From positions 310,001 to 374,000 of the forward strand of contig NZ_JADEXS020000001.1 of assembly GCF_015207005.2 (NCBI RefSeq): a stretch of DNA of 64,000 bases. Reading direction: 5' to 3'. The notes below the pieces were generated by a model that did not search any database, had not been told where the DNA came from, and worked only from the letters and a program-made list of their open reading frames with translations. This document shows, piece by piece, positions 15,516 through 55,772 of this stretch. Every line of letters begins with the position of its first letter. Position 1 is the stretch's first letter. Made by a program: the position numbers and the translations under genes. This stretch comes from Desmonostoc muscorum LEGE 12446. Its GTDB lineage: Bacteria; Cyanobacteriota; Cyanobacteriia; Cyanobacteriales; Nostocaceae.

Positions 15516-15581
15516 AAAATGGGCATGGGGATAATTAACAATTCCCAATCCAAAATCCAAAATCTAAAATCTAAAATTCTT

Positions 15582-16280: not shown

Positions 16281-16308
16281 CTACCCATAAGGTTTTTTCC
16301 TCTACTCC

Positions 16309-19597: not shown

Positions 19598-19632
19598 TTA
19601 GCGCAGCGGGGCGTAGCCCATTCTGAATTCTG
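19598..19632. repeat. Interspersed repeat (AGCGCAGCGGGGCGTAGC type), copy 1
   Basis: The sequence GTTAGCGCAGCGGGGCGTAG, flanked by copies of ATTCTG, recurs at about 50602-50635 and, inverted and slightly changed, at 48949-48981. It is a dispersed short repeat of this genome. Confidence 0.7.
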
Positions 19633-19926
19633 CTGTAATTTACATCTGATTGTTGGCGCTGTTACAACCCGTAATTTTAAAAACGTTTACCATACCTTAA
19701 GTTCTTTCATAAAACAAAAGTAGTTCACTAGGAACACAAACATCTGATTCAGTAGAGAGTTTTGTTATTTTCCTATCTGGCTAAATCACCTTATCTAAGT
19801 AAAATCTCAAAAATTTCCAATTTTGTTAAGGACTTCGCAGTGATAAATCAACAATATCTGAATTTTGAATTCTGATTTCTTCTTCAATTTGTTATTTTTT
19901 CTGCGCCACTAGTTAAGAGGTAATCT

Positions 19927-21126: not shown

Positions 21127-21254
21127 AAAGGGCATTGGGCATTGGGCATTGGGCATTGGTTATTCTTTCTCCCCCTGCCTCCCCTGCCTCCCCTGCTCCC
21201 CCTGCTCCCCCTGCTCTCTTACCTCCCTCATCCCCCTCATCCCCACTCCAAACT

Positions 21255-22427
21255 ATGGGATTGATTGAACAATTGCGACGCCGAACCCCTCTAGGATGGC
21301 TGCAACTGAGTCATGAAAAAAGTCGTCTGTTGGTGGCATTGTTAGGCATTGCCTTTGCGGATCTTCTCATGTTCATGCAGCTGGGCTTTCAGACTGCGCT
21401 GTATGACAGTAACACTCGACTACATCGCAGTTTGCAAGCAGACATTGTTTTAACCAGTCCCCAAGCCCGTAACTTGCCAAGCTTGTCTACGTTTTCTCGG
21501 CGGCGACTTTACCAAGCAATGGATATACCAGGGGTGAAGTCGGCCCAAGCGATGTATTTCAACAACACAATCTGGAAAAATCCTGTAACACACCGCGAAA
21601 CGGGGGTGTTAGTCATCGGTTTTAACCCAGACAAGCCAGCCTTTGATTTCCCAGATGTTAACCAGCAATTGCAGGCAATCAAGCTGCCGGGTGCGGTGTT
21701 GTTCGATCGCGGCGCTAGAGGAGATTATCAAAAAGCGATCGCCCAAATTGAGGAAGGTAAAATCGTCACTGCGGAAATAGAACGCCGCACAATTATTATT
21801 AGTGGTTTATTCCAAGTCGGGGCTTCCTTTGGCGCTGAAGGCAATTTGATTACCAGCGATCAAAATTTTTTGCGGCTATTTTCTGGACGACAGTCTAGCA
21901 GCGTCAGTCTAGGTTTGATTCAAATAAAACCAGGCTATGACCCAAAAAAAGTCGCAGCAATGCTCAAAGCCTACCTGAGAAATGATGTCAGAGTGCTAAC
22001 CCACGCAGAATTTATTGAATTTGAGAATAACTTTTGGAGAACAAATTCGCCAATTGGGTTTATTTTCAACTTGGGTGTATCGATGGGTTTTGTGGTGGGC
22101 GTGATTATTGTCTATCAAGTCCTTTCCACCGATGTTAATGCCCACGTTCGGGAATATGCCACCTTCAAAGCAATGGGATATCGGAATTACTACCTGCTAG
22201 GTGTCGTATTTGAAGAGTCTTTGATATTGGCAGCACTAGGGTTTTTTCCCGGATTGGGAGTATCCTTAGCACTTTACCACCTGACTCGCAAAGCTACAAA
22301 TTTGCCCATGTACATAACTTTGATTCGGGCATTACAGGTATTAGTGCTGACCATAATCATGTGTGCAATTTCCGGTGCGATCGCCACCCGCAAACTCCAA
22401 GCCACCGATCCCGCTGATATGTTTTAA
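21255..22427 (+). CDS. devC: DevC-type ABC transporter permease, copy 2
   Basis: The 390-residue permease is closely similar to the one at 14340: RRRTPLGWLQLSHEKSRLLV, a periplasmic domain, a C-terminal three-helix bundle with IGFIFNLGVSMGFVVGVIIV, and the ending ATDPADMF. I chose the ATG at 21255. The longer in-frame start at 21135 lies in a C/T-rich repeat that would give a proline/alanine-rich leader absent from the family. It follows devB copy 2 by 128 bases. Confidence 0.9.
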   Translation: MGLIEQLRRRTPLGWLQLSHEKSRLLVALLGIAFADLLMFMQLGFQTALYDSNTRLHRSLQADIVLTSPQARNLPSLSTFSRRRLYQAMDIPGVKSAQAMYFNNTIWKNPVTHRETGVLVIGFNPDKPAFDFPDVNQQLQAIKLPGAVLFDRGARGDYQKAIAQIEEGKIVTAEIERRTIIISGLFQVGASFGAEGNLITSDQNFLRLFSGRQSSSVSLGLIQIKPGYDPKKVAAMLKAYLRNDVRVLTHAEFIEFENNFWRTNSPIGFIFNLGVSMGFVVGVIIVYQVLSTDVNAHVREYATFKAMGYRNYYLLGVVFEESLILAALGFFPGLGVSLALYHLTRKATNLPMYITLIRALQVLVLTIIMCAISGAIATRKLQATDPADMF

Positions 22428-22535
22428 AAAATGGGCAGTAGGGAATAGGCAATAGGCAATAGGGATTGAAAACCACTCCCCACGCCCCACTCCCCACGCC
22501 CCAATCCCCAATCCCCAATCCCCAATCCCCAAAAC

Positions 22536-23228
22536 ATGTTTCCCGTCATCTCCATCCATAATCTCGACCACTACTTTGGTCACGGCTCACTTCGCAAGCA
22601 AGTTTTATGTAATATCAACTTGGAGATTAACGCCGGTGAAATTATTATCATGACCGGCCCATCTGGTTCTGGAAAAACTACTTTGCTGACCTTAGTTGGT
22701 GGGTTGCGTTCTACCCAATTTGGTAGTTTGCGGGTGTTGGGACGAGAACTTTGTGGTGCTAGCGCCCAACAACTAGTCCAGGTGCGACGCCATAATGGTT
22801 ACATTTTCCAAGCAGATAACTTGCATGGTAGTTTGACAGCACTGCAAAACGTGAAAATGGCTTTGGAATTACACAAACATATTGGGTTAAAAAAAATGCG
22901 AATTAGGTCAGCCCAGATGCTAGAGCAGGTGGGATTAGGTAACCACTTGCATTACTATCCTGATAAACTGTCTGGGGGACAAAAACAAAGAGTAGCGATC
23001 GCCCGTGCTTTGGTCAGTCATCCTCAAATTATCCTAGCCGATGAACCCACCGCCGCCCTTGACAGTCAATCAGGACGAGATGTGGTCAACCTCATGCAAA
23101 AACTGGCAAAAGAACAAGGCTGTACCATCTTGATGGTTACTCATGACAACCGCATCCTAGACATTGCCGATCGCATCCTTCACATGGAAGATGGTAAGCT
23201 CAACTCAAAAGTAAAACTATCAGCCTGA
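22536..23228 (+). CDS. devA: DevA-type ABC transporter ATP-binding protein, copy 2
   Basis: The 230-residue ATPase is nearly collinear with the protein at 15582: Walker A GPSGSGKTT, signature LSGGQKQRVAIARAL and Walker B IILADEPTAALD. It closes the second devBCA operon. About 108 bases of short repeats (CCCCAATC type) separate it from devC, matching the repeat-filled gap of the first operon. Confidence 0.92.
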   Translation: MFPVISIHNLDHYFGHGSLRKQVLCNINLEINAGEIIIMTGPSGSGKTTLLTLVGGLRSTQFGSLRVLGRELCGASAQQLVQVRRHNGYIFQADNLHGSLTALQNVKMALELHKHIGLKKMRIRSAQMLEQVGLGNHLHYYPDKLSGGQKQRVAIARALVSHPQIILADEPTAALDSQSGRDVVNLMQKLAKEQGCTILMVTHDNRILDIADRILHMEDGKLNSKVKLSA

Positions 23229-42200: not shown

Positions 42201-42713
42201 ATGACACAAGAATTAATAGACCTCAGAACTTGTATTTTAGAAGGACGTTATGCAGATGCCTTAGCAATTGTAGATGAATTAGAGGGAATGAGTAAACAAG
42301 CTATTCTGCGTAATATCCAAGCTTATTTAAGAATTCTGCTGATTCATTTAATTAAAAACCAAGTAGAGCAGAGATTAACAAATTCTTGGGTAGCTTCTAT
42401 CCGGAATTCGCTTTTAGAAATTAAAAAACTTAATCTCAAAGACAATAAAAAATCTTATTATATCAATTTAGAAGAATGGGATACTCATCTGGAAGATGAA
42501 ATAGAAGTAGCTGTGCGTGATGCGAGTGTGGAAGTGATGAATGGAATATATAATGAATTTCAACTAGCTGAAATAGTCGATAAAAACCAGATAATTCAGG
42601 GTGTTTTGAAATTTTTGATGCTAACTTATTCTTATTCAGCTAAAGAATTACCGGCAGTTATAGCTGAAAATTTAACTGAGTTACCCGGTGGAGAAGATTG
42701 GAAAAACAGATAG
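42201..42713 (+). CDS. DUF29 family protein, copy 1
   Basis: The 170-residue helical protein matches the DUF29 pattern: YADALAIVDELEGMSK, then a long helix with LRILLIHLIKNQVEQR, SWVASIRNSLLEIKKLNL, and a C-terminal SYSAKELPAVIAENL. DUF29 is widespread in cyanobacteria and has no established function. It is the first of three tandem paralogues, 10 bases before the second. Confidence 0.85.
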   Translation: MTQELIDLRTCILEGRYADALAIVDELEGMSKQAILRNIQAYLRILLIHLIKNQVEQRLTNSWVASIRNSLLEIKKLNLKDNKKSYYINLEEWDTHLEDEIEVAVRDASVEVMNGIYNEFQLAEIVDKNQIIQGVLKFLMLTYSYSAKELPAVIAENLTELPGGEDWKNR

Positions 42714-42723
42714 GCGGTGAAAA

Positions 42724-43245
42724 ATGACACAGGAATTAATAGACCTGAGAAAGAGCATTTTAGAAGGACGTTATGCAGATGCCTTAGCAATTGTTGATGA
42801 ATTAGAGGGAATGAGCAAACAAGCTATTCTGCGTAGTATCCAAGCTTATTTAAATATTCTGTTGATTCATTTGATTAAAAACCAAGTAGAACAACGATTA
42901 ACTAGTTCCTGGGCAAATTTTATTCGGAATTCTATTCGGCAAATTAAAAAACTGAATATAAAAGATAATAAAACATCTTATTATATCAATTTAGATGAAT
43001 GGGAGAATTTAATAGAAGAGGAAGTGATGGAAGATGCGATCGCAGATGCGAGTGAGGAAGTTATGAATGGAGCATATACTCAATTTCAACTAGCACAAAT
43101 GGTAGACAGAAACCAGATAATTCAGACTGCTTTGAAATTTTTGCTACTAACTTATTCTTATTCAGCTAAAGAGTTACCGACAGTTGTGGCTGAAAATTTA
43201 ACTGGGTTAGTCGGTGGAGAAGATTGGAAAACAGGTGGGCGGTGA
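42724..43245 (+). CDS. DUF29 family protein, copy 2
   Basis: The 173-residue paralogue of the preceding gene has near-identical N-terminal residues (TQELIDLRKSILEGRYADAL) and the same domain layout. An acidic insertion, LIEEEVMEDAIADASEE, is shared with copy 3. The GGCGGTGAAAA preceding its ATG matches the sequence before copy 3, showing duplication of the whole unit. Confidence 0.85.
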   Translation: MTQELIDLRKSILEGRYADALAIVDELEGMSKQAILRSIQAYLNILLIHLIKNQVEQRLTSSWANFIRNSIRQIKKLNIKDNKTSYYINLDEWENLIEEEVMEDAIADASEEVMNGAYTQFQLAQMVDRNQIIQTALKFLLLTYSYSAKELPTVVAENLTGLVGGEDWKTGGR

Positions 43246-43248
43246 AAA

Positions 43249-43815
43249 ATGACATAGGAACTAATAGATTTAAAAAAGAGCATTTTGGAAGGGCGTTATG
43301 CAGATGCCTTAGCAATTGTTGATGAATTAGAGGGAATGAGTAAAAAGGCAGTTCTACGGCAAATAAAATCCTTTGTCAGAATTCTACTAATTCATCTAAT
43401 TAAGAATCAACTAGAGGAGAGATTAACAAATTTTTGGGCAGCTTCTATTCGGAATGCAATCCGCGAAATTAAAGAAGTAAATGTCAAAGAAAATAAAACA
43501 TCTTACTATATCAGTTTAGATGAATGGGAAAATTTGATAGAAGAGGAAGTCGTGGAAGATGCGATCGCAGATGCCAGCGAGGAAGTTATGAATGGTAAAT
43601 TCACTCGCTCTCAATTGTCAGCGATGCTAAATAAAAACCAGATTATAACCACAGCAACAAGTTTCCTGGCTTTAACATATACTTATTCGCCAAAGGAATT
43701 ACCAGCAATTATGGATGATTATCTCAGTAGGTTAGCTGGGGGAGAAAATTGGATAAATCGGGATAAGGCGATCGCGATTCATTTGCAGAATGCAGGGAAT
43801 ATTCCAGTATGCTGA
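43249..43815 (+). pseudogene. DUF29 family protein, copy 3, with nonsense codon 3
   Basis: The start region reads ATG ACA TAG where copies 1 and 2 read ATG ACA CAA/CAG, so codon 3 is a stop. The remainder is a fully open, well conserved DUF29 frame, and its C-terminus runs on about 20 residues past the end of the others. Translation could restart at TTG 43285 (EGRYADALAIVDE), giving 176 residues that lack only the first dozen. It is a recent nonsense mutation, a weakly re-initiated gene, or a sequence error. Confidence 0.65.
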
Positions 43816-43891: not shown

Positions 43892-44725
43892 ATGATGAAA
43901 GAAATAACTCGCCGCAAATTTATCGCCACAGCCACCTTGGCGACGGGTTTTGCTTTGGCAGTGCAGCCGATTTCTGCCGGAGTCATCACCACTGATACCA
44001 AGGAGTTGGTAGCTGGTGCAGTGAAAATTCCCGTTAAAGATGGCGAAATTCCTGCCTACAGAGCAGTACCCGCCACTGGTGAAAATTTCCCAATTGTTTT
44101 AGTAATTCAAGAAATCTTTGGCGTACACGAGCATATTCAGGATATCACTCGCCGCTTTGCCAAGTTGGGGTATTTGGCGATCGCTCCGGAAATGTTTGTC
44201 CGTCAAGGTGATGTCTCAAAATTAAGCAGTATCAACGAAATTCGCCCAATTGTCGCCAAAGTACCAGATGCCCAAGTGCTATCCGACCTTGACGCCACCG
44301 TAAACTGGGCTGTGAAATCAGCCAAGGGTAATGCCAATAAATTGGCGATTACAGGCTTTTGTTGGGGCGGCCGCATCACCTGGCTATACGCAGCACACAA
44401 TCCCCAAGTAAAGGCGGGGGGAGCGTGGTACGGGCGACTCGTAGGTGATGCTACTGAACTTCAACCAAAGTATCCCGTTGATATTGCATCAAAACTGACA
44501 GTGCCAGTTCTCGGACTCTATGGTGGTCAGGATACGGGTATTCCCCTAGATACAGTAGAGAAAATGCGCGATCGCCTCAAGGAAAGCAGCAGCAAATCAG
44601 AAATCATCGTCTACCCCGATGCACCCCACGCATTTTTTGCCGATTATCGTCCCTCCTACCGCCAGAAAGATGCTCAGGACGGTTGGAAACGCCTTTTGGC
44701 GTGGTTTAAGGAAAATGGCGTGTAA
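43892..44725 (+). CDS. Dienelactone hydrolase family protein with Tat-type signal
   Basis: The 277-residue protein has an N-terminal twin-arginine-like leader ([19 protein letters not shown]) and an alpha/beta-hydrolase core. The nucleophile elbow GFCWGGR has the cysteine typical of dienelactone hydrolases, the acid is in YGGQDTGIP and the histidine in [12 protein letters not shown]. It is probably exported and acts on a lactone or ester; the substrate is unknown. ATG 43895 is an equivalent start one codon later. Confidence 0.9.
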
Positions 44726-44886
44726 CAGCAGTCAGATAGCCAATTGATGGCGATCGCCTTTAATGTCTGCAATCAAACAGGCGATCGCTCGCGTACTAGG
44801 TAGAGACGATTTGATGGTAGATAGACCCGCGCTGTAGTGGCATTGGTGTCAACTTCAGCTCAAACCTCTGTTCCACAATCGTTTTA

Positions 44887-44957
44887 CCCCACCCCTCAAT
44901 CCCCTCCCCGAAGATCGGGGAGGGGAGGTTTTGCGTCAGCAAAGCCGGGGTGGGGTG
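44887..44957. repeat. GC-rich palindromic repeat, family member 2
   Basis: CCCCACCCC ... CCCCTCCCC ... GGGGAGGGG ... GGGGTGGGG, closely related to copies at 9889-9964 and 62933-63003. It is a dispersed hairpin-forming repeat. Confidence 0.7.
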
Positions 44958-45115
44958 ACTCCGGATTGATTGGTAATTGAGTAAGTTTGCTCTAACGTCA
45001 TTACAAGGTTTTTACGTTAAGTTGACACTAATGAGCAATGCTGTGCCACTACAACAGGTGTGGTTTTTAAAATCATCCATATTTGGTCTTTCCTGTCAAT
45101 GCATAAGTCCTAACT

Positions 45116-45149
45116 ACTAGCCCTTTCAAGGTGACTTGAAAGGGCTAGT
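45116..45149. terminator. Perfect 15-bp-stem hairpin between convergent genes
   Basis: ACTAGCCCTTTCAAG at 45116-45130 pairs perfectly with 45135-45149 around loop GTGA. It lies between convergent transcription units and could end both transcripts, though no strong T-run follows. Flanking TCCTAACTAC copies suggest it may also be a small insertion. Confidence 0.5.
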
Positions 45150-45198
45150 CCTAACTACATTGAATTTTTATCGCCGATTTACTTATCATTATTCGTAA

Positions 45199-47082
45199 TC
45201 ATTTATTACTAAACCAAAATTTAGTTACAGGCCAAGACAACTCACAAATTGTTCCTTTAGAAGAAAGAGGAACTCGTTGAAATTTACCTTTGAGTTGCTT
45301 TGCTAAATTTCTAAACTGTTGGGTGCCGCGACCTTCTCGAGATGAATTGACACCCAACCCATCATCTATAATGCTCAAAGTGTACCAGCCTTCAGATGAA
45401 AAGCAAGTAACTTCGAGGCGAGTTACTCCTATGGCATGTTTGCCGACATTGCATAAAGCTTCTTCAAGAAATCGGCAGAGTCCTTGCTTTTGTTCTATGC
45501 TTAAATATCGTTCATCTATAGGTTCAAAAGTACGAATTTTAACTTTAATAGTTCTAAAGCAAGGAAAGTCTCGCGCTAAAGTATGGCTGTAAACTTGATA
45601 GAGAATTTCATGCAGAGGATCTTGCAAATTTAATACTAAAGTATTTCCTAAGTAAAGACTACTGTCTTGATTTGGAGGTTCTCGTTGTAAAAAATCATAA
45701 ATTCCTCGGAGTTCGTGGTTTAGTTTCTCAAGTTCTTTTTCCAGTTCTGGAAGTAATTCTTTGATTGGTAAATCTTGACATCTAACCATTTTTAAAACTT
45801 TAGCTAGACTTTGCAAGGGTCCGTTGTGAATTGTTTCAAATGTGCGTTCAATAACATCCTGTCTAGTTTTAATTCCCAATCGCAGAGCTTGATCGCATTG
45901 ATATAAAGCAGTGAGTTCTATACCATTGAGAGTTAAAACGATAATTGTAGGAATTACTGGAACCCACCAGCCCCAAGTTAAGAGAAAATAACTAGCGACT
46001 ATTAAGCTAGAAGTTGTAGTAATCACAATGATGATATTTGCTAAAAGAGATTTACTCAATCGAGCGATCGCAATTCCTAAAAACCCCCAGGCAAAGATCC
46101 ACAAATATTCCCATTCATCTGACCAAGTATTTAAAAGTGGTCTGTCATCAAGCACCGCGCTGACAATTTGGCTCACAGCATGTGCTTGGATTTCTACTCC
46201 ATAAACTTGTTTTTTTGTAGGCTGATTAGATGTAATTCTCGAAGTAGTTATCAAGTCTTTACGACTAGGGGAAGTTATGCCGACAATTACAATGCGATCG
46301 CGTAACCATTCAGAATTAAATTTGTTGCTTTTAATATCATTTAAAGATATAGTTTTAAATCTTTTTCGACCACTACGGAAATTGAGCAGTACTTGAACTC
46401 CGGTTACATCAGTTCGGACATAGCCTCCAGAGTTAGGAAAAAGTTTTGGTAGTGGAGTATTACCAAACTGAATTCCAGTGCGATCGCTAATACTATTTTT
46501 GAGGCTAATATTTTTCTGAGCTAAATAAATTTCTGCTAAACGTAGAGATAAAGATAATTTTTCTCCTTGAAATGTTGGTGTTATTAATAGGCTTCGTCTT
46601 AATTTGCCGTCAGCATCCGTAATTTGATCGGCAAAACCAATTTGTTCAAAAGAAAAATTCGGTGGCGGAGCAATTTGCTTGGGGAATACTTTTTCAATGA
46701 CAATTAAATTTTTGATATTTTTAAAAGCTGCCAACAGTTCTGTATGACCAGGGTTAACTGGAAAATCTCTATAAATATCAAGACCGATAACTCTAGGTTG
46801 ACACCTGTGCAATTTCCACAATAGTGCTGCTAAATCTCTATCTGATACTGAAGAATCTATGAGGCGATCGTCTTGATTAATGCCCACAATTATAATTCGT
46901 TCATCTATAGGTTCCTCAGGACGCAGACGCAGGAAACTATCAAAAGCTAGCCACTCTAAAGATTGCATTGAACCACTCAGACGAGCAACTATCACCAGTG
47001 CAATGACTACAATTCCTGGAAATGCACCTACACGCCAAATCCGAATTTCTTCTTTGATTATTTTCCAAAGCCGAGGCTGCAT
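45199..47082 (-). CDS. CHASE2-domain sensor histidine kinase
   Basis: The 627-residue protein has an N-terminal membrane helix (about residues 17-35) and a CHASE2 sensory domain (about 38-290, with IDERIIIVGINQDD and VIGLDIYRDFPV). Three membrane helices follow (about 305-385), then a NarL-type dimerisation helix with phospho-acceptor His419 in ETIHNGPLQSLA, and an ATPase domain with N-box EALCNVGKHA and G-box IIDDGLGV. It is 89 bases downstream of the response-regulator gene on the same strand, so it is the likely partner kinase. The signal sensed is unknown. Confidence 0.9.
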   Translation of the reverse strand: MQPRLWKIIKEEIRIWRVGAFPGIVVIALVIVARLSGSMQSLEWLAFDSFLRLRPEEPIDERIIIVGINQDDRLIDSSVSDRDLAALLWKLHRCQPRVIGLDIYRDFPVNPGHTELLAAFKNIKNLIVIEKVFPKQIAPPPNFSFEQIGFADQITDADGKLRRSLLITPTFQGEKLSLSLRLAEIYLAQKNISLKNSISDRTGIQFGNTPLPKLFPNSGGYVRTDVTGVQVLLNFRSGRKRFKTISLNDIKSNKFNSEWLRDRIVIVGITSPSRKDLITTSRITSNQPTKKQVYGVEIQAHAVSQIVSAVLDDRPLLNTWSDEWEYLWIFAWGFLGIAIARLSKSLLANIIIVITTTSSLIVASYFLLTWGWWVPVIPTIIVLTLNGIELTALYQCDQALRLGIKTRQDVIERTFETIHNGPLQSLAKVLKMVRCQDLPIKELLPELEKELEKLNHELRGIYDFLQREPPNQDSSLYLGNTLVLNLQDPLHEILYQVYSHTLARDFPCFRTIKVKIRTFEPIDERYLSIEQKQGLCRFLEEALCNVGKHAIGVTRLEVTCFSSEGWYTLSIIDDGLGVNSSREGRGTQQFRNLAKQLKGKFQRVPLSSKGTICELSWPVTKFWFSNK

Positions 47083-47171
47083 AAGCTTTCCTCCTAGCCT
47101 TTAGCTATAAGCTTTATGGGTAAAGTATTCTGAATTCTGAGTTCTGAATTCTGACTCCTCTTTATTAGCAA

Positions 47172-47849
47172 CTAATCAATTAAACCTTCTTCTCTAGCTC
47201 TGATTTCAGTTTGAATCCGAATATTTTTTCCTTCATCAGGATAAACATTTAAAGCGTCTTGTAGCTTACTCCAGTAATGACGTACCATACGTTCAGATAT
47301 ACACATTCGTTCAGCAATAGTTTTGTCTTGTAATCCTTCTTCAAACGCTAAAGTCAGCACCCTAAGCCACTCTGGTTTAAACTCTAATCCCGAATAAATT
47401 CCTTTAATATCTTTTGTATGAGTTAATCCTTGTAACGCCCAATCAACTCTAGTCAACATTTCTTGGGTGGAAAGACTTTTATCGGCGACTGTAAAACCTC
47501 CTTTATGACTATCAATATCAGGTCTAATTCTCACTAATGTTCTCACATGAGCAGTTTGGACAATAATATTCAAGTTGGGATAGTGTTTCATCAAAATTCT
47601 GAGTAGTTGAATACCTGTGTCCGGTCGGGCTGTATTGCCATAATTTTCTGGTATGGAAAGATCCATAACTATAAGATCTAGCTGTAAACTACTAACTTGA
47701 TTGAGAGCATTATTAGCATTTATAGCAGTGACAATTTCAGCACCAGGGTAATGTTTTTGTAAGATGTCTACTGTTCCACTTAAAACTGACTCATGGTCAT
47801 CAATTACCAAAATTTTCAGCAATGCCTTCTCTGATATTTCTTGTTTCAT
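47172..47849 (-). CDS. NarL/LuxR-type response regulator
   Basis: The 225-residue regulator has a receiver domain (about residues 11-140) with acidic D17-D18 and phospho-acceptor Asp63 in IVMDLSIPE, and a C-terminal helix-turn-helix (about 163-215, LQDKTIAERMCISERMVRHY). The recognition helix is less typical than in classic LuxR proteins. It sits between the kinase-like gene upstream and the CHASE2 kinase gene downstream, all on the minus strand below the peptide exporter. It probably controls the precursor and exporter promoters. Confidence 0.9.
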   Translation of the reverse strand: MKQEISEKALLKILVIDDHESVLSGTVDILQKHYPGAEIVTAINANNALNQVSSLQLDLIVMDLSIPENYGNTARPDTGIQLLRILMKHYPNLNIIVQTAHVRTLVRIRPDIDSHKGGFTVADKSLSTQEMLTRVDWALQGLTHTKDIKGIYSGLEFKPEWLRVLTLAFEEGLQDKTIAERMCISERMVRHYWSKLQDALNVYPDEGKNIRIQTEIRAREEGLID

Positions 47850-47962
47850 AACTCACAGCCTGCTGATTAAGTAGAGAATTAAAAATTCTTGATTATCATC
47901 CACATTAGCCAATTATTTTTCTGGAAATATAAAGAAATATATTAAATTAAAAAATATAATAA

Positions 47963-48622
47963 TTACCAGTAAAAATACCAGGAAATTTTCATATTTTTAG
48001 CGCGACGAAAACATTTACCTGAGGTTAGTAATCGAAAAGTTTCACAAAGATAATTTAATTCTGGTAGCCTGGAATGAAAGATAAATGTAGACACATTAGG
48101 ATAAGTAATTTCTACAATTAATTGTCCAATATTTTTGTGTTCTTTTAAATTGATATAAATTGATGTTGATGCCAAAACTTCTGCTAAAGTTATGGTCAGT
48201 AACTCATTTAAAGCCGTTAATACAACTAGACTACGTTCAGCTGGCTCATGCCGCCAATAAAGCGGTAAATCGATTTGAAAGTATAACTGAGGATTGGACA
48301 CTAGCCAAGGTTCTAATAAACACTCAATAGCTAACGGAAAACTGTCTTGAAGGGATGCCGGAAATAAGCGATCGCTCAGCTGCACCAAAGAGTGATGAAA
48401 ATTGTCAATTTGTTTTAAGCATTCTTGAATTTTTTTATCTGATAAATTCAGATGATCTACTCTTAACAAATCTAAATTGCGACGTATTGTAAAAGATTCC
48501 TGTAACAAATCATCCCGAATTTTCTCTGCTTCCACAAAGAGTTTCATCGACTGCCTAGAAGACCACCATTGCAATGATTGTTGAATTCTCTGATAAGATG
48601 TCAGAAACCGCACTAGGGACAT
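47963..48622 (-). CDS. Degenerate histidine-kinase-like protein
   Basis: The 219-residue protein has no membrane segment. Its N-terminal helix EAEKIRDDLLQESFTIRRNL looks like a NarL-type kinase dimerisation helix (E-R-x-R-I-A-R-E-L-H-D pattern) in which the histidine is replaced. A middle block, VVLTALNELLTITLAEVLAS, sits where the N-box of the ATPase domain would be, without its normal asparagine, and no G-boxes follow. It may be a pseudokinase that tunes the neighbouring two-component pair. This is inferred from pattern only. Confidence 0.55.
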   Translation of the reverse strand: MSLVRFLTSYQRIQQSLQWWSSRQSMKLFVEAEKIRDDLLQESFTIRRNLDLLRVDHLNLSDKKIQECLKQIDNFHHSLVQLSDRLFPASLQDSFPLAIECLLEPWLVSNPQLYFQIDLPLYWRHEPAERSLVVLTALNELLTITLAEVLASTSIYINLKEHKNIGQLIVEITYPNVSTFIFHSRLPELNYLCETFRLLTSGKCFRRAKNMKISWYFYW

Positions 48623-49012
48623 AACGTAGACAATTCAAAGTATAATTTTCGGACACAATTTCAGGCTCACATAATATTGTTATGTCAGCTATTTTAGTAG
48701 CATAAGAAAAAAGTTATATGCAACCCACGGCATATTTATGCCAAAAAAATGCCAACGTGTACAAAATAATTGCCAAAAAGTGCCACGAGAATTTATCAAG
48801 ACTTTATAATGTATCATTAACCCATTTCATATTAAATTTCTCGTAGTTGCTACATTTAAAAAAGACAAAACTCTCTTCCCTGACATAAACAGGGAAGAAG
48901 GAGTTATGATGGGTAAATACTACACATTACATTGATAGGGCAGAATTCAGAATGGGCTACGCCCCGCGGCGCTAACTGAATTCAGAAGTCCTGATTTCTG
49001 ACTTTTTACTTA
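48623..49012. other. Intergenic region between adaptor and kinase-like gene
   Basis: 390 bases without a gene. There is a short hairpin CTTCCCTG...CAGGGAAG at about 48876-48898 and an inverted copy of an interspersed repeat at 48949-48981. A separate promoter for the regulatory genes could lie here. Confidence 0.5.
48949..48981. repeat. Interspersed repeat (AGCGCAGCGGGGCGTAGC type), copy 2, inverted
   Basis: GGGCTACGCCCCGCGGCGCT is the inverse of the repeat seen at 19598-19632 and 50602-50635, with one substitution. It is flanked by GAATTCAG motifs. Confidence 0.65.
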
Positions 49013-50416
49013 TTAAATATCTGTGATTAATCTCGCCTTTCTCAACATAAATTGTAATGCTGTCTCTTCTTGGGAAATAATATTAGCTTTTGCATTCATC
49101 CCTGATTGGATGTGACACTGAAGAGTACCGTTGCCAAATTTTAGCATTTCGGGTTGAATTGTGGCTTCAAAATAACCAGCAACAGCAGTTGATGTAGCTG
49201 CATTGATATTGCTACCCACAGGTGTAATTACATCTGGAGAAATGCCACTGACAACAGCTTTGAGAGTACCATAATCAGGATATGGACAAGCATCAATTCG
49301 CAATTGCACTTTTTGACCAACTGCAACTTTTTGAATTTCTGCGGTAGGAATCATCGCTTTAATCACCAAAGCAGCATTCTGAGGAACAATTTCAGCAATA
49401 GATTCGCTAACACCCACAACTTGACCAGGGTTTCGCAAATTGAGCTTGAGAATTGTACCATCGCTAGTGGCGCGAATAATGCTGTTTTGCAGTTGAGTCT
49501 CGATTTGTTGAAGTTCTTTTTGATATTGCTTGAGTTGGGTTTGCATTTCCACCCGCCGCTGCATTAAAGCTTGTTTTTCTTTGTTTAAAGTAGCGATGGT
49601 TGCTTCACCTCTAGCAATTTCTTGGGAAACGCGTTCTTGGGCGATCGCAATTCTTGCCATACTGGGATTGACTACAGCTAGGGCTGATTGCAGTTTAGCT
49701 TGAGCAATTTCAATAGATATTTTTTCTGATTCAAGTATTAACTTAGTCTGTTCAACAACTAGTTTTTTCTGCTCAAATTCACGCCGACCAATTGCTCCAA
49801 CTTCTGCTAATTGTTCATAGCGATCGCTATCCATTTTAGCAAAGTCTAAATCCGCTTGAGCTTTTTGCAAATTTGCCCTAGCTTTTTGCAAGCTGGCTTG
49901 AGAAACCAACAATTCACTTTGAGTAGCAACTTTTCTTTCTTGATACTCTCGTTCGTTGCGTCCCAAATCTACTTTTGCAGAAGAAACAGTGCGTTCTATG
50001 AATCTTTTTTCAGCCAATATCTGAGTATCTAAAATAGCTACTTGCGAATCAATTTGAATTACTTGTAATCTACTTTGTTCGATATTGCCTTGGAGTTGAC
50101 TTTTTTTGATTTGCAATTGTCGCGTATCCAGACGGGCAATTACTTCTCCTTTTTTAACAACTTGATTTTCTTTCACAAAGATACTTTCAACAGTCCCCTC
50201 CATTTCTGGTTGCACTAGCTTCGTGTCGCCTATGGGACGAACAGTAGCAGCAGTTTCCACCATGACATTGTATTTAATCCATGAAGAAAGAGCGATCGCA
50301 GAACCAATAGTTCCAACGAGAAACACTCCAGCTAAAGATGTCCAAGCACTAATAGGAGGAAGAAATTCATCCTTTTCAAGTGATGGTAGAAACTTTTCAT
50401 TATGGGTGTAAAGCAT
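49013..50416 (-). CDS. HlyD-family adaptor of the peptide exporter
   Basis: The 467-residue protein has a membrane helix (about residues 22-43, WTSLAGVFLVGTIGSAIALS), a lipoyl half (VQPEMEGTVESIFVKENQVV), a long coiled coil (about 100-300) and a second half (IIRATSDGTILKLNLRNPGQ), then a barrel domain. I chose the ATG at 50416, directly after an AGGAG ribosome site; the in-frame ATG at 50503 adds 29 hydrophobic residues with no such site. It is 286 bases after the ABC exporter gene and would form the periplasmic bridge to a TolC-type channel. Confidence 0.9.
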   Translation of the reverse strand: MLYTHNEKFLPSLEKDEFLPPISAWTSLAGVFLVGTIGSAIALSSWIKYNVMVETAATVRPIGDTKLVQPEMEGTVESIFVKENQVVKKGEVIARLDTRQLQIKKSQLQGNIEQSRLQVIQIDSQVAILDTQILAEKRFIERTVSSAKVDLGRNEREYQERKVATQSELLVSQASLQKARANLQKAQADLDFAKMDSDRYEQLAEVGAIGRREFEQKKLVVEQTKLILESEKISIEIAQAKLQSALAVVNPSMARIAIAQERVSQEIARGEATIATLNKEKQALMQRRVEMQTQLKQYQKELQQIETQLQNSIIRATSDGTILKLNLRNPGQVVGVSESIAEIVPQNAALVIKAMIPTAEIQKVAVGQKVQLRIDACPYPDYGTLKAVVSGISPDVITPVGSNINAATSTAVAGYFEATIQPEMLKFGNGTLQCHIQSGMNAKANIISQEETALQFMLRKARLITDI

Positions 50417-50601
50417 ATTTCTCCTAATAATTAAAAAAAAGTAGTCAGAATTCAGAATTAATTTTGTAGAGTTAGCCAATTTAAGAGAATACGTATAGAT
50501 CAATACAGTTTAGAATGAGCAACAAAACCCTCATGTAGAGACGCGATTTATCGCGTCTTCTCTAGACCAATTATCTACACCAATAACCTTATCTGAATTC
50601 T

Positions 50602-50635
50602 GTTAGCGCAGCGGGGCGTAGCTCATTCTGACTCC
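50602..50635. repeat. Interspersed repeat (AGCGCAGCGGGGCGTAGC type), copy 3
   Basis: Same sequence class as 19598-19632, here inside the gap between the exporter and adaptor genes. It is accompanied by repeated CTGAATT/CTGACTC units up to 50700 and a GAGACGCGATTTATCGCGTC inverted repeat near 50537. Confidence 0.7.
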
Positions 50636-50702
50636 TGACTTCTGAATTCTGAATTCTGAATTCTGACTCCTGACTCCTGATTTCTGAATTCTGACTTCTT
50701 CT

Positions 50703-52853
50703 TCAAGGAATCAAAAAGTCTATATGATCTCCTGGTTTTGTTCGCAACTCTTGCAAAGAACCTTCAAGCTTTAACTTACCTTGATCTAGCAATACAATCC
50801 AATCAGCTCGATTAACCACCTTCGGACGGTGAGTAATTAAAATCGTAGTTTTACCCCAACGATGTTTAAATAATTTATCCAAAACTTGTGCTTCACTTAC
50901 CGGATCGAGTCCACCAGTAGATTCATCCAAAATCAAAACTGGCGGATCTGTAACAATCGCTCTTGCTATTGCCAGTCTTTGACGTTGCCCACCAGAAATA
51001 TTTGCACCAAATTCACCTAAAATAGTTTGATATTTGTCAGGCAAATTATTAATAAATTCATCAGCCTCAGCTACTTGACAAGCTCTGACAATTTGCTCAA
51101 AAGTAACCTGGGGTGCGCCTAAGCGAAAGTTTTCCACAATCGAACGACTCCAAAAATGAGGCTCTTGAGGAACAAGAACTACCTGTTGACGTAGACAATC
51201 AAGAGAAAGGTCTTGGATATTATAAAGTCCAATACTAATATTCCCTGATTGCAGTGGATATAACCCAGCAATCAATTTCGCTAAAGTACTTTTACCACAA
51301 CCAGATTTGCCGATAATGGCAACAACTTTGCCACCAGGAATTGTTAAAGAAAAGTTATCTATTAAATCAAGCCGACCAGCATAGTGAAAGTTAATATTGG
51401 TACAAACTATATCAGCATCACAGGGAATTTCAGCAAAAGGCTTTATCTCATCGCCCTCATTTTCCGCAGTGGCATCTATAACTTCGGTGAGCCGTTGTGT
51501 GGCTGTTTTTGCCCGCGTAAATTCCTCGACAAAACTAATTAAAGTTGCAATTAACCCCAGGAAATTACCATTCATTGAGTTAAAAGCAAGCAGTTGACCG
51601 ATGCTGAGGTTTTCTGCTGGATTAATCACTAAATTACCGCCGAACCAAAGCAAAATTACGCCACCAATACCCGCAACCAAGCCAGAAAAAGTATTATTAA
51701 TAATCCCAATTTGAATTGTGCTAAATGTCACGTTTGCCAGACGAGCAAATCGGCTTTGAAATTCGTCCCAAAATTGCGGTCTAGATGTGGTAGTTTTCAG
51801 AGTCAGCGCGCCTTTAAATGTTTCTACTAAAACTCCTTGTGTTTCTGCTTCTTGAACTAAAAGTTCACGAGTTTTTTGGCGCAAAGTCGGCTGGAAGACT
51901 ATAGTAGATAAGCTCATCATCACAGCAATGAAGACAGCAACGGCTGTGAGTTTCCAGCTATAGAAAACCATGAAGCTAAAAGAAATCAGCGCAATAAAAA
52001 ATTGACTTGGTAGAGTGATAATTAAGTTAGCAACTAGCTGATTAATTTGGTTAATATCTCGCAGACGACTAACAATTTCACCGCTACGTCTGGCTTCGTA
52101 ATAAGCAAGGGGTAATCGTAAAATTTGCCGCCCAAATTCCAGAACTAAACCTAATTGCAGACGTTGGGCAAAGTGAGCAATTAAGTTAGATTGTACAAAC
52201 GAAAGACTACGAGAAACAACATTCATTACTACCACAGCGATCGCTACAGTAGTTAGTAATTTTGTATCACCTCGCACCAACACATCATCAGTAAGAATTT
52301 GTAGCAAAAAAGGAGAAGCTAAAGATAACAAACCCAACGTTAAATTCAAAGGCAAAACTTGAGCTAAAATCCCGCGATAAATCCAAACACGTTTGAAAAA
52401 ACGCCAAAAACCGCCGACTTTATCATCCTCTTGGGCAAAAAAGCGTATTGGATCGGGTTCTAATAGAAGTATTAACCAATCTGTCCAGCCTTCCGCTATC
52501 TCTTGCTGAGAAAGATAACGCACACCTACCGCTGGATCTGCAACTAAACATTTTTTACCTTTCTTACCATATAAAACAACCCAGTGATTCCCTTTCCAAT
52601 GAATAATTGCTGGTAGCGGTGCTTCATTCATTCGATTGAGAAGTTCCGGCGAAGTTTTCACTGGACGAGCATTAAACCCAAGCGTTTCTGCTCCACGCTT
52701 CAGCCCCAATAAAGTAGTTCCAAATTGTCCAGTACCTACCGCTTCCCTAATGCGGCTGAGAGTAAAAGTACGTCCGTAATATTTAGCAATAGCAGCAAGA
52801 CAAGCAGCTCCACAATCTTCTTTGCTATGCTGTTTAACAAACTGGTATTTCAT
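50703..52853 (-). CDS. Peptidase-containing ABC exporter (C39 peptidase, PCAT)
   Basis: The 716-residue protein has an N-terminal C39 cysteine peptidase domain (about residues 1-130) with the Q-x5-C active site QHSKEDCGAAC (Cys14), the catalytic histidine in GNHWVVLYG and the aspartate in VADPAVGV. A six-helix ABC transmembrane domain (about 155-435) and an ATPase domain follow, with Walker A GKSGCGKST, signature ISGGQRQRLAIARA and Walker B LILDESTGGLD. Such exporters cut leaders after a double glycine and export the core. The five precursors upstream all carry that site, so they are its likely substrates. Confidence 0.95.
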   Translation of the reverse strand: MKYQFVKQHSKEDCGAACLAAIAKYYGRTFTLSRIREAVGTGQFGTTLLGLKRGAETLGFNARPVKTSPELLNRMNEAPLPAIIHWKGNHWVVLYGKKGKKCLVADPAVGVRYLSQQEIAEGWTDWLILLLEPDPIRFFAQEDDKVGGFWRFFKRVWIYRGILAQVLPLNLTLGLLSLASPFLLQILTDDVLVRGDTKLLTTVAIAVVVMNVVSRSLSFVQSNLIAHFAQRLQLGLVLEFGRQILRLPLAYYEARRSGEIVSRLRDINQINQLVANLIITLPSQFFIALISFSFMVFYSWKLTAVAVFIAVMMSLSTIVFQPTLRQKTRELLVQEAETQGVLVETFKGALTLKTTTSRPQFWDEFQSRFARLANVTFSTIQIGIINNTFSGLVAGIGGVILLWFGGNLVINPAENLSIGQLLAFNSMNGNFLGLIATLISFVEEFTRAKTATQRLTEVIDATAENEGDEIKPFAEIPCDADIVCTNINFHYAGRLDLIDNFSLTIPGGKVVAIIGKSGCGKSTLAKLIAGLYPLQSGNISIGLYNIQDLSLDCLRQQVVLVPQEPHFWSRSIVENFRLGAPQVTFEQIVRACQVAEADEFINNLPDKYQTILGEFGANISGGQRQRLAIARAIVTDPPVLILDESTGGLDPVSEAQVLDKLFKHRWGKTTILITHRPKVVNRADWIVLLDQGKLKLEGSLQELRTKPGDHIDFLIP

Positions 52854-53181
52854 AGGTAAATTACTCTACATAATGACAAATACTGCCGCACCGCAAAAAG
52901 TAAATTACATTTTAAAAAATTTCAAAAATCAAAAATTCAATAATTTTGCAACTTTGAATTGAAGGAAAGCGGTACTAATACTATGAAATTTTTTCAGCCT
53001 GGTGTTATGTTTTTGGAATTACTAAAACTTATTTCTCAACTCTGAATATACTGAACAAAAGATGACCCATATAATTGTATTATTATGGATCATCTGTGGA
53101 AAATTTTGGTTCATTTTATGTTCAAGTGTGCCGATAAATTTATGTCACAGATGCTGAGATTTTAGCCAACACTTCCGTATA
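52854..53181. other. Intergenic region between precursor cluster and exporter
   Basis: 330 AT-rich bases. A terminator-like hairpin for the precursor transcripts lies at 53057-53094 (listed separately). The remainder probably holds the exporter promoter. Confidence 0.5.
53057..53094 (-). terminator. Terminator or attenuator after the precursor genes
   Basis: Read on the minus strand, arms 53094-53084 and 53071-53061 pair with one mismatch, and TTTT follows. It lies downstream of the last precursor and before the exporter, a place where partial termination would give more precursor than exporter. Confidence 0.5.
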
Positions 53182-53433
53182 TTATTTGTATTGATATTGT
53201 AAAAAATCAAGAATGTGATTCACATCTAAAGCCAAAAAAGCTAACCCAGCAGTCTTAATATTTGTAGATCTACCATAAGAACTAGCGATGCTGCCATCTG
53301 GTCCAGAATAACTACTACCACTGAGAATATTTTCACTGGCTTGGTAAAAAGTGGCATTTATTGCAAAATCAGCACCACCAGCTACAATCTCTAGTTGTTC
53401 ATCAGATAAATCTCTAAACAATTCACCAGACAT
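53182..53433 (-). CDS. Double-glycine secreted peptide precursor 1 (closest to exporter)
   Basis: The 83-residue precursor has leader LFRDLSDEQLEIVAGG, cut expected after Gly20. The core begins ADFAINATFYQASENILSGS, with a Ser/Gly-rich centre (GSIASSYGRST), a conserved KTAGLAFLALD segment and a divergent hydrophobic tail. No cysteine is present. It is the most diverged of the five copies. The leader and core resemble peptides that public annotation calls CTB family bacteriocins, which is remembered, not searched. An ACGAGG ribosome site precedes the ATG. Confidence 0.85.
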   Translation of the reverse strand: MSGELFRDLSDEQLEIVAGGADFAINATFYQASENILSGSSYSGPDGSIASSYGRSTNIKTAGLAFLALDVNHILDFLQYQYK

Positions 53434-53481
53434 AGCTGTACACCTCGTAGTTTTAATTCGATGAAATTTTAGGATTAGTTA

Positions 53482-53573
53482 CGTGAGTTCGCATCACCAT
53501 CAGAAACATGGCAAGTTAAGTTTTTAGAATTAAAGACAATTCTTTTTACTCAACTATTTTCATCGAACTCACG
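53482..53573. repeat. Intergenic inverted repeat between precursors 2 and 1
   Basis: CGTGAGTTCG at 53482-53491 and its inverse CGAACTCACG at 53564-53573. The same pair occurs in the intergenic regions further along the cluster. Confidence 0.8.
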
Positions 53574-53605
53574 TATTAATTGATTGCTGTTTTTAGTTGC
53601 TCAAC

Positions 53606-53857
53606 TTAATGGCCATATGCTTCTGAAAGTTCAATAATTTCATGAGCATCCAAGGCTAAAAAAGCTAGTCCAGCAGTTGCAATATTTGTAGAACTGCCGT
53701 TAGAGCTAGCAGCACTACCATGAGGGCCAGAACTGCTTTGGCCATTGAGAACATTTCGGTTTGCTGTATAAAAAGTGGCATTTATTGCAAAATCAACACC
53801 ACCAGCTATAACTTCTAGTTGCTCGTTCGATAAATCTGTAAACAATACGTGAGACAT
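53606..53857 (-). CDS. Double-glycine secreted peptide precursor 2
   Basis: The 83-residue precursor has leader LFTDLSNEQLEVIAGG and core start VDFAINATFYTANRNVLNGQ. A Ser/Gly/Asn-rich block GSAASSNGSST and the conserved IATAGLAFLALD lead to a tail that is longer and more polar (SEAYGH) than in copies 3-4. It is cysteine-free. The upstream ribosome site and spacing match the other copies. Confidence 0.87.
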   Translation of the reverse strand: MSHVLFTDLSNEQLEVIAGGVDFAINATFYTANRNVLNGQSSSGPHGSAASSNGSSTNIATAGLAFLALDAHEIIELSEAYGH

Positions 53858-54037
53858 AGTTAGAAACCTCGTAATTTTGATTGGAAAAACTTGAACTATT
53901 AGTAACTTCAGTTCGGAATTGAGAAGTGGAAATTTGATTTTTTAGTATTAGAGATTTAATCTCTAATTTGCTTTCATCAAATTCACGAATTAGTTCATTG
54001 TCTTTTGGAGTTGCTTAACCTGATAGCTGTATCCTTT

Positions 54038-54271
54038 TTAAATCTGAGGAAGTTCATGAGATCCCAAGGCTAAGAAAGCTAGTCCAGCAGTTGCAATCTC
54101 TGTAGAACTACCGTTAGAGCTAGCAGCACTACCACTGGGGTCAGAACTGCTTTCGCCATTGAGAACATTTTGGTGTGCTGTGTAAAAAGTTGCATCTATT
54201 TGAAAATCAACACCACCAGCTACAACTTCTAGTTGCTCGTTTGATAAATCTGTAAACAATACGTAAGACAT
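54038..54271 (-). CDS. Double-glycine secreted peptide precursor 3
   Basis: The 77-residue precursor has leader LFTDLSNEQLEVVAGG, core start VDFQIDATFYTAHQNVLNGE, block DPSGSAASSNGSSTEIATAG and tail LALGSHELPQI, the last shared exactly with copy 4. It is cysteine-free. The two have probably arisen by recent duplication. Confidence 0.88.
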   Translation of the reverse strand: MSYVLFTDLSNEQLEVVAGGVDFQIDATFYTAHQNVLNGESSSDPSGSAASSNGSSTEIATAGLAFLALGSHELPQI

Positions 54272-54320
54272 AGTTAGAAACCTCGTAATTTTGATGTCAG
54301 AAATTTGAACTATTTAGTAA

Positions 54321-54416
54321 CGTGAGTTCGTGATTGGGAAGTGAGAATTTGATTTTTTAGTATTAGAAATTGTATCTCTAATTGTTTTCCATCAAACTAT
54401 TTTCATCGAACTCACG
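54321..54416. repeat. Intergenic inverted repeat between precursors 4 and 3
   Basis: CGTGAGTTCG at 54321-54330 and CGAACTCACG at 54407-54416, enclosing a smaller hairpin-like TTAGAAATTGTATCTCTAAT. The gap between precursors 3 and 2 has degenerate versions of both arms. Confidence 0.8.
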
Positions 54417-54466
54417 TATTAGTTTATTGCCTTTTTTAGCCGCTTAAACTAATGGCTATATCTTTT

Positions 54467-54700
54467 TTAAATCTGAGGAAGCTCATGAGAACCCAAGGCT
54501 AAGAAAGCTAGTCCAGCAGTTTCAATCTCTGTAGAACTACCGTTAGAGCTAGCAGCGCTACCACTGGGGTCAGAACTGCTTTCGCCATTGAGAACGTTTT
54601 CTTTTCCTGCGAAAAAAGTTGCATCTAGTTGGAAATCAACACCGCCAGCTACAACTTCTAGTTGCTCGTTAGATAATTCTGTAAACAATACGTGAGACAT
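54467..54700 (-). CDS. Double-glycine secreted peptide precursor 4
   Basis: The 77-residue precursor has leader LFTELSNEQLEVVAGG and core VDFQLDATFFAGKENVLNGE with the same tail as copy 3. I chose the ATG at 54700 to match the four other copies, with ACGAGG ten bases upstream. An in-frame ATG 13 codons further upstream would extend the leader in a way no other copy shows. Confidence 0.88.
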   Translation of the reverse strand: MSHVLFTELSNEQLEVVAGGVDFQLDATFFAGKENVLNGESSSDPSGSAASSNGSSTEIETAGLAFLALGSHELPQI

Positions 54701-54749
54701 AGTTAGAAACCTCGTAATTTTGATCTCAGAAATTTGCACTATTTAGTAG

Positions 54750-54845
54750 CGTGAGTTCGTGATTGAGAAGTAGTAATTTGATTTTTTAGTATTAGAGATT
54801 GTATCTCTAATTGATTTTGATCAAACTATTTTCATCGAACTCACG
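54750..54845. repeat. Intergenic inverted repeat between precursors 5 and 4, with inner hairpin
   Basis: Outer arms CGTGAGTTCG (54750-54759) and CGAACTCACG (54836-54845). The inner perfect hairpin ATTAGAGAT/ATCTCTAAT is at 54791-54811. Because the pattern recurs between copies, the duplicated unit is gene plus intergenic region; a cruciform or dimeric regulator site is possible. Confidence 0.8.
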
Positions 54846-54877
54846 TACTAATTCATTGCCTTTTTTAGCTGCTTAAC

Positions 54878-55117
54878 CTAAAATTCAACCTTAGGAATGT
54901 CACTAGCTCCCAATGCTAAGAAAGCTATTCCAGCAGTTTCAATTTGTGTAGAACTACCGTTGGAGCTAGCAGTGCTACCACTGGGATCAGAACTACTTTC
55001 GCCATTGAGAACGTTTTCTTTTGCTGCGAAAAAAGTTGCATCTAGTTGGAAATCAACACCACCAGCTACAACTTCTAGTTGCTCGTTGGATAATTCTGTA
55101 AACAATACGTGAGACAT
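54878..55117 (-). CDS. Double-glycine secreted peptide precursor 5 (promoter-proximal)
   Basis: The 79-residue precursor has leader LFTELSNEQLEVVAGG and core VDFQLDATFFAAKENVLNGE, with block DPSGSTASSNGSSTQIETAG. The tail LALGASDIPKVEF differs from copies 3-4. It is cysteine-free. It lies furthest from the exporter, so it is transcribed first if the cluster is one unit. Confidence 0.88.
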   Translation of the reverse strand: MSHVLFTELSNEQLEVVAGGVDFQLDATFFAAKENVLNGESSSDPSGSTASSNGSSTQIETAGIAFLALGASDIPKVEF

Positions 55118-55772
55118 AGTTAGAAACCTCGTAATTTTGATTTGATGAGATTTGATTTAGCTATTAATTGATTGCCTTTTGATTGGCTGCTCAACTCGTC
55201 GCTTGTTTAATACGATATAGGTCAGTAACTATGTGAGTCATTTGCATTTTCTGCACAGTTAATTACCATGCTAAGAAAAACTTGTTGCACGATTAAGCTA
55301 GTAGTCTGTCTGAAAAATACGCCTATATAAAAGTTCTATTTTTATACTCTGCCTTGAGGATGATTATTCACAAAAGGCGTTAGGGCAGCACAGCTATACA
55401 CCCCTAATACCTCTTGGCTCTTTATTCTTGCTCATGATTCGTTTAATGTTAAAGTCCCTTGGTAACCAAAATCACTTCGCCAAATCAAAAATCCTCTTAC
55501 CAATGTTGCGATTTTAGTTACAATACTCAATGAAATTAGGTTAGCGATCGCTTTATATCATCTTTCCCTAATCACCGTTCAAAAAATTCTTTGCGTCCCG
55601 CCGTCAGTTGCAATGATACAGCGTATTTCAGGTAAAGGAAGTACACGGGTAGGGGCACAACATGTTCCCTACAATTATCTGTACCTCACGCCTGTTGCAA
55701 TTCGCTGTCAGTCTTCAACTGCACATGATACGACGTGTGCCAATATCATTTGAGTTGTTAATTCCTGTAGTT
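55118..55772. other. Intergenic region upstream of the precursor cluster
   Basis: About 650 bases. It should hold the promoter of the precursor cluster (minus strand) and of the YihY gene (plus strand). A degenerate copy of the ACAGCT-centred palindrome lies near 55378-55412. No gene is supported. Confidence 0.5.

Follow-up and report, generated by a model that had tools for sequence, protein, structure and literature searches.

A CTB-type peptide-secretion locus in Desmonostoc muscorum and its probable long-term linkage with a three-gene signalling module

A ten-gene cassette and its recurrence

We analyzed a cassette of ten genes in a 64,000-nucleotide stretch (the window) of the 9.6 Mb genome of Desmonostoc muscorum LEGE 12446 (contig NZ_JADEXS020000001.1, positions 310,001–374,000). 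Ten open reading frames (ORFs), all present, follow one another on the minus strand at 45199–55117. In the order of transcription they encode five double-glycine (GG) precursor peptides (P1–P5, 55117–53182), a C39-peptidase ATP-binding cassette (ABC) exporter (PCAT), an HlyD-type adaptor, a 219-aa kinase-like protein named PSK here, a response regulator (RR) and a CHASE2 histidine kinase (HK); PSK, RR and HK together are called the triad (Table 1). The cassette is probably a CTB or group III peptide-secretion locus that long-term linkage has joined to a three-gene signalling module. Its peptide-export half is of an already known kind, and the whole is a widespread, well-supported variant in which a known peptide-export locus is accompanied by a linked signalling module. 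The most likely function is the secretion of unmodified extracellular peptides under the control of a two-component system, with PSK tuning HK or RR.

A PSK homologue was found in 11 of the 59 genomes of relatives searched, the host's own included. All nine genomes whose PSK is at least 83% identical, again counting the host, keep the full gene order together with four or five CTB precursors, the HK in one of them (G016) being a 375-aa form. Because this order recurs in nine of nine genomes and the precursors show ratios of nonsynonymous to synonymous substitution (dN/dS) of 0.28–0.52, chance is excluded as its source. In the remaining two genomes, HK is reversed and in pieces (G033) or the triad stands by itself (G051). 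Two genomes (G005 and G013) carry a second copy that consists of the triad only.

A PSK profile scan of named genomes returned 69 loci, nearly all from Nostocales; the nearest, in Nostoc sp. FACHB-973, has a PSK 100% identical to that of the window. The order C39–HlyD–PSK–RR–HK was present in 63 of these 69 loci, 62 identified by script (including L145, with a reversed and broken HK) and one, L138, added with an RR that overlaps PSK. A contig end cuts the exporter side in three further loci (L160, L165 and L166), and the most distant named locus (L173, PSK 38% identical) shows no C39 or HlyD gene in the 2.5 kb available.

Since the named loci had been found through PSK, the linkage was also viewed from the exporter side, in 291 genomes of the order, with up to three places scored per genome and tallied by eye. 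Among the matches listed, PSK lay within 4 kb on the same strand at 19 of 25 C39 places with at least 77% identity, and at none with lower identity. A partial C39 match (G051:C128) is one of the six places without PSK nearby. Two C39 places without PSK lie at contig borders (G290 and G162, the module of the latter being on another contig), and in G153 C39 and HlyD stand alone with no module. The other two are in G269 and G323, where a short PSK remnant is left next to RR and HK. Distance correlations among C39, HlyD, PSK, RR and HK (r 0.69–0.87) are confounded by the species tree and were not used as proof.

The exporter combines C39 (126 bits), ABC membrane (116 bits) and ABC ATPase (112 bits) domains in one chain, each above its Pfam cut-off, and contains the elements DCG...HWVVL...ADPA, which we take to be the catalytic set. 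The adaptor passed HlyD_3 (61.9 versus a cut-off of 22.2) but remained under the cut-off of the type I secretion adaptor family TIGR01843 (167.2 versus 208.65 bits), and is therefore filed only as HlyD-type; its start is likely at 50416 rather than 50503. Neither a peptide-modifying enzyme nor an outer-membrane channel or recognisable immunity protein was found among sixteen proteins, the ten of the locus and six flanking ones. A preliminary description made from the sequence had reported this ten-gene set with its five GG precursors and the lack of a modifying enzyme, both of which are confirmed, as well as PCAT-type export of the peptide set, a prediction that the precursors, PCAT and HlyD support. 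Its phrase "complete self-contained" was too strong, given the missing channel and immunity protein and a terminator-like hairpin that splits the precursors from the exporter.

Group III clusters as described by Wang et al. (2011) comprise a short C39 transporter and HlyD (PMC3140520). The cassette matches that account in its short-type C39 ABC transporter, HlyD and several GG precursors, and no second ABC transporter, LanM, SurA, S8 or CAP_ED was found among the locus domains and the six flanking proteins. It differs in the linked PSK, RR and HK; the main text of that paper contains neither "histidine kinase" nor "response regulator" (PMC3140520). A study that covers group III clusters of Subsection V has no "histidine kinase" in its available text, and both uses of "two-component" there concern terpene clusters (PMC4558948). 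HetC of Nostoc PCC 7120, treated as a PCAT, is likewise an exporter of a heterocyst-forming cyanobacterium (PMC10986499). No description of the exporter–kinase cassette, the linked triad or the pseudokinase was found in the open-access literature covered.

Table 1. Features of the cassette, with positions in the window unless a locus is named
Feature	Position	Strand	Description
P1	54878..55117	-	79 aa, GG leader 1-20, core 59 aa; NF038167 89.5 bits
P1-P2 intergenic hairpin	54750..54845	-	z -7.5 for 54745-54851
P2	54467..54700	-	77 aa; NF038167 87.3 bits
P2-P3 intergenic hairpin	54321..54416	-	z -6.1 for 54316-54422
P3	54038..54271	-	77 aa; NF038167 82.0 bits
P3-P4 hairpin	53895..53990	-	weaker, degenerate outer stem; z -3.4
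P4	53606..53857	-	83 aa; NF038167 85.9 bits
P4-P5 intergenic hairpin	53482..53573	-	z -7.0 for 53477-53579
P5	53182..53433	-	83 aa; NF038167 82.2 bits; least P1-like (57% identity)
Terminator-like hairpin 3' of P5	53060..53095	-	z -4.1 for 53060-53130; not flagged by consensus scan
PCAT, C39 peptidase + ABC exporter	50703..52853	-	716 aa
HlyD-type adaptor	49013..50416	-	467 aa
PSK N-terminal membrane segment remnant	48623..48670	-	closed by in-frame TGA 48635-48637
PSK	47963..48622	-	219 aa, predicted pseudo-histidine kinase
RR	47172..47849	-	225 aa, receiver + NarL-like HTH
HK	45199..47082	-	627 aa, CHASE2 histidine kinase; H-, N-, G1-like boxes by eye
Longer GG peptide before exporter	L110:5439, L114:5663, L127:4939, L128:4735, L133:312, L134:5557		

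The signalling triad

PSK has no family above cut-off in the profile scan. It is predicted to fold like a histidine kinase (DHp and CA domains) of the DesK/DosS kind; DosS and DesK are the nearest folds, and DivL and RetS structures are also among the Foldseek matches. At the position of the phosphorylated His, 63 of the 65 readable loci have Arg, one has His and one Gln; the four loci that the motif pattern left unread include L145, which has His. Recognisable ATP-binding boxes are missing from PSK, and the gene is under purifying selection (dN/dS 0.15). Kinase-fold partners that tune an active kinase are exemplified by DivL with CckA and RetS with GacS, DivL being called catalytically inactive (PMC12189002). 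PSK differs from both in its small size, in the Arg at the His position, in a predicted fold nearest DosS/DesK and in its coupling to a peptide exporter.

An N-terminal membrane helix of PSK was detected in 35 of 64 loci by a hydropathy threshold. Throughout the Nostoc clade (10 of 10 loci, L105–L114) the membrane segment is closed by the same in-frame TGA, which starts 15 nt before the ATG, and L114 has a second stop there. Most simply, PSK in this clade would be a soluble protein that begins at the inner ATG; alternatively, the in-frame TGA may be read through. Loss of the PSK segment and of CHASE2 appears correlated on raw loci (Fisher p 3.9e-5), a relationship we do not claim: independent pairs were concordant in 0 or 1 of 5 cases per pairing, with no difference in the rest.

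RR passed the Response_reg cut-off (46.2 bits) and has the acidic pair, phospho-Asp and Lys of a receiver. Its GerE helix-turn-helix (HTH) stayed under the cut-off (17.7 versus 23.5) and is filed as NarL-like only. Elsewhere, a 535-aa ORF beside ATPase-like genes, at L097:8052-9659 (G000:C1:8.515 Mb), contains a stretch 61% identical to RR.

HK passed the CHASE2 cut-off (201 bits), fell under that of Pfam HATPase_c (14.6 versus 26.4) and gave weak matches to NarQ- and UhpB-type kinases. The H-box is kept in the HK of 66 of 67 loci and the N-box in all 67. CHASE2 is absent from the HK in 17 of the 64 loci on the tree, a distribution that needs six changes, five of them forced by well-supported branches; we read these as losses because the related HKs of L087–L089, L095 and L096 are full-length. 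In the HKs that lack CHASE2 the kinase part is retained, in most of them together with the membrane stretch before it. Given this repeated absence and the faster evolution of CHASE2 (dN/dS 0.32, versus 0.10 for the kinase part), the sensor seems to be under weaker constraint than the kinase, PSK or RR. Input may come via the membrane stretch, PSK or the exporter.

Precursors, cargo and intergenic hairpins

The five precursors share the leader form MSxxLFxxLSxEQLExxAGG, followed by Cys-free cores of 57–63 aa with a high content of Ser, Gly and Asn; P2 likely starts at the ATG at 54700 and not at the listed GTG at 54739. A search against known bacteriocin families, which the preliminary description had proposed, placed all five above the cut-off of the NCBIfam family NF038167, "CTB family bacteriocin" (82–90 bits versus 32), and Pfam Bacteriocin_IIc stayed below cut-off, with E-values of 0.06–0.08 for two of the five. 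All five thus belong to NF038167 by cut-off; the family name is an annotation, and the literature covered under that name contains no activity test. Pooled dN/dS was 0.38 for leaders and 0.44 for cores (34 sequences, seven loci), so the precursors are maintained genes, and these pooled values gave no sign of diversifying selection. An AF2 precursor model (pLDDT 47) was too low in confidence and was put to no use.

The same genome has one further precursor above the NF038167 cut-off and four weak matches at C1:840–849 kb. This second CTB place (L077, G000:C1:836001-856000) has C39 and HlyD, with no PSK, RR or HK in the 20 kb covered.

At least one GG peptide, recognized by the leader pattern, lies within 6.5 kb upstream in 52 of the 64 loci with C39. 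The cores differ widely beyond the Nostoc clade; among ten cargo proteins scanned against NF038167, four passed, five were weak and one had no match. In several loci the exporter is also immediately preceded by an additional, longer GG peptide (Table 1), which in most cases combines a basic stretch with a hydrophobic C-terminus; the window has no such peptide. Both of those tested against NF038167 (L128 and L114) were under its cut-off.

Hairpins occupy the spacers between the precursor genes, and a terminator-like hairpin 3' of P5 stands between the precursors and the exporter. The outer stem of the intergenic hairpin is formed by CGTGAGTTCG/CGAACTCACG, with arms 70–80 bases apart. Covariation was assessed in nine loci, on 31 of their 35 spacers, where the 11-pair stem formed in 93.8% of cells, compared with at most 40.2% when the stem was slid. 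Two-sided changes occurred in 11 cells versus 2.6 in shuffles, none of the 500 reaching that count. Stricter counts were weaker: four pairs changed on both sides versus 2.0 (22 of 500 shuffles as high), and nine further pair types versus 7.8 (122 of 500). RNAalifold recovered nine of the 11 stem pairs, three with a two-sided change, and a small covariation term of -0.28. Folding z averaged -3.4 over all 35 spacers, 28 of them at -2 or lower, compared with means of -1.1 (n=15) and -0.75 (n=18) for control pieces of the same loci; the precursor spacers of eight other loci folded variably (z -0.4 to -6.6, 23 spacers).

As stabilisers or processing sites of the polycistronic mRNA, their most likely role, the hairpins would let the small ORFs outnumber the exporter. 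A covarying inverted repeat acting as a DNA site is less likely because the arms lie 70–80 bases apart. Origin from a mobile element is also unlikely: the exact pattern occurs three times in the genome, always in the precursor array, in a search that did not extend to diverged copies. Rfam, the only place where a known counterpart was sought, gave no match for 44500–55700 at E ≤ 1. A promoter and terminator consensus scan did not rise above shuffles (35 promoter-like sites versus 30.4; four terminator-like versus 7.0).

Regulation, product and rival explanations

Judging from the families involved, the C39 domain would cut the precursors after GG, and the ABC part would export the 57–63-residue cores, probably unmodified, via HlyD and a trans-encoded outer-membrane channel. 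The conserved order suggests that HK and the NarL-like RR act as the switch for the peptides, for the exporter or for both. PSK could tune this pair either by binding HK, as in DivL–CckA and RetS–GacS, or by holding RR.

Several observations weigh against this picture. For the linkage, both Richelia sinica loci (L153 and L167) keep PSK and have no RR or HK in the 10.0 and 3.7 kb beyond it, and in G269 and G323 (L174 and L175), where RR and a CHASE2-less HK stay beside C39 and HlyD, PSK has decayed and short remnants are left of it. Among the matches listed, C39 lay within 4 kb of only 19 of 38 PSK places; distant homologues (34–48% identity) make up 15 of the remaining 19, and this distant PSK branch is mostly unlinked to the exporter. 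The triads of L087–L089 have no exporter homologue in the 20 kb covered for each. For regulation, the regions upstream of P1, C39, HlyD, PSK, RR and HK in nine loci have no conserved word of at least eight bases in common. For PSK, hhalign of its profile against the HK catalytic part was not significant (probability 0.1%), and among the families listed no kinase Pfam reached E ≤ 1 with any of 38 PSK sequences; the pseudokinase call is based on a predicted fold and an alignment by eye. The preliminary wording "pseudokinase-like" nonetheless fits, with a histidine kinase fold predicted and the catalytic His replaced, while sequence profiles by themselves give no link. Signal control of the peptides by the two-component system, which had also been proposed, is not shown: the order is conserved, no common upstream word was found, and linkage is the evidence that would point to such control.

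As for the product, we tentatively rank an extracellular peptide with a matrix, surface or community role above a bacteriocin, which we regard as doubtful, and above a signal, which appears unlikely. Matrix or biofilm peptides would be comparable to EbfG1–4 of Synechococcus elongatus PCC 7942, which are exported by PteB and whose biofilm function was shown by mutants (PMC4997328). The architecture is the same, with several tandem GG proteins of similar size beside a C39 exporter, the EbfG ones being co-transcribed; however, the EbfG cores have no homology to other cyanobacterial proteins, the main text of that paper has no two-component-system words (PMC4997328), and NF038167 found no match in 14 control genomes including S. 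elongatus. The matrix or surface role ranks above the bacteriocin partly because the module, where it occurs without an exporter, adjoins secretion or surface genes. Such RR–HK pairs or triads lie next to TPS-domain, CHAT and DUF928 proteins (L087 and L095), beside DUF928 and CHAT proteins (L088) or beside a beta-helix protein (L096). PSK accompanies the RR and CHASE2 HK relatives in L087 and L088; the CHAT genes of L087, L088 and L095 are CHAT-TPR. This suggests that the kinase family is generally tied to secreted or surface proteins.

In a classical bacteriocin locus, the five peptides would kill related cyanobacteria and the two-component system would switch the weapon on under stress. The family name points that way, as does the combination of GG leader and PCAT seen in class II bacteriocins, with Bacteriocin_IIc itself below cut-off. 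So does the CTB operon of Nodularia CCY9414, which rises in phosphate depletion; another bacteriocin cluster in that strain did not respond (PMC9846622). These points are countered by the locus and the six proteins scanned in its flanks, none of which is recognisable as an immunity protein, by cores that are Ser/Gly/Asn-rich and free of Cys, by the low confidence of the AF2 model and by the literature covered, in which killing is not reported for CTB peptides.

An autoinducing circuit, in which HK detects either a core once it is secreted or the exporter flux, has precedents in peptide-pheromone and transporter-sensing kinases, and the Gram-positive GG-pheromone circuits (ComABCDE, Blp) likewise unite PCAT, GG peptides, HK and RR in one locus. 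The cassette is unlike the latter in its CHASE2 kinase, NarL-like RR, extra PSK and Gram-negative envelope with HlyD. Linkage of exporter and kinase and the faster evolution of CHASE2 are in keeping with autoinduction, and the CHASE2-less HKs, with kinase part and mostly membrane stretch retained, would fit sensing in the membrane. We nevertheless judge it improbable, as exporter-less triads exist and no common regulatory word was found upstream. A more elaborate circuit, in which the GG exporter is read by its own kinase, the pseudo-histidine kinase couples export or peptide to RR and the peptides form a feedback-controlled community signal or matrix, seems quite improbable.

It is also improbable that the parts are mere neighbours, with the two-component system regulating something else and sharing only inheritance with the exporter. 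The linkage might be inherited from an ancestor, the parts are set apart by a gap of 390 nt before PSK and by the terminator-like hairpin before C39, and G153 has C39 and HlyD without the module. On the other hand, many Nostocales genera keep the order, at PSK identities as low as ~51%, despite peptide turnover and CHASE2 loss.

GG peptides are annotated in many cyanobacteria, and the one tested case found concerns biofilm (PMC4997328). In the cassette a regulator, a kinase and a second, probably inactive kinase accompany the exporter across many genera that form heterocysts, which makes controlled peptide secretion testable step by step. The CHASE2-less kinases and the two PSK-decayed genomes provide a natural set for asking what the pseudo-histidine kinase contributes. 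Compared with a reading of the letters only, the precursor family proves to be already named, the cassette recurs across Nostocales, and its sensor domain is repeatedly absent.

On the plus strand, the cassette is flanked on one side by dienelactone hydrolase and DUF29-like genes and on the other by genes for a BrkB-family protein, a DUF4112 protein and an alpha/beta hydrolase. Three tandem paralogues of ~170 aa lie at 42201–43815 (+), the first above the DUF29 cut-off and the third just under it. Short degenerate repeats of the type CAGAATTCAGAA occur between locus genes at 50600–50700 and 47100–47160. Farther away, at 12948–23228 (+), two more HlyD-like ORFs (28% and 25% identity) alternate with two ABC ATPase-like ORFs (30% each), possibly DevBCA-type exporters.

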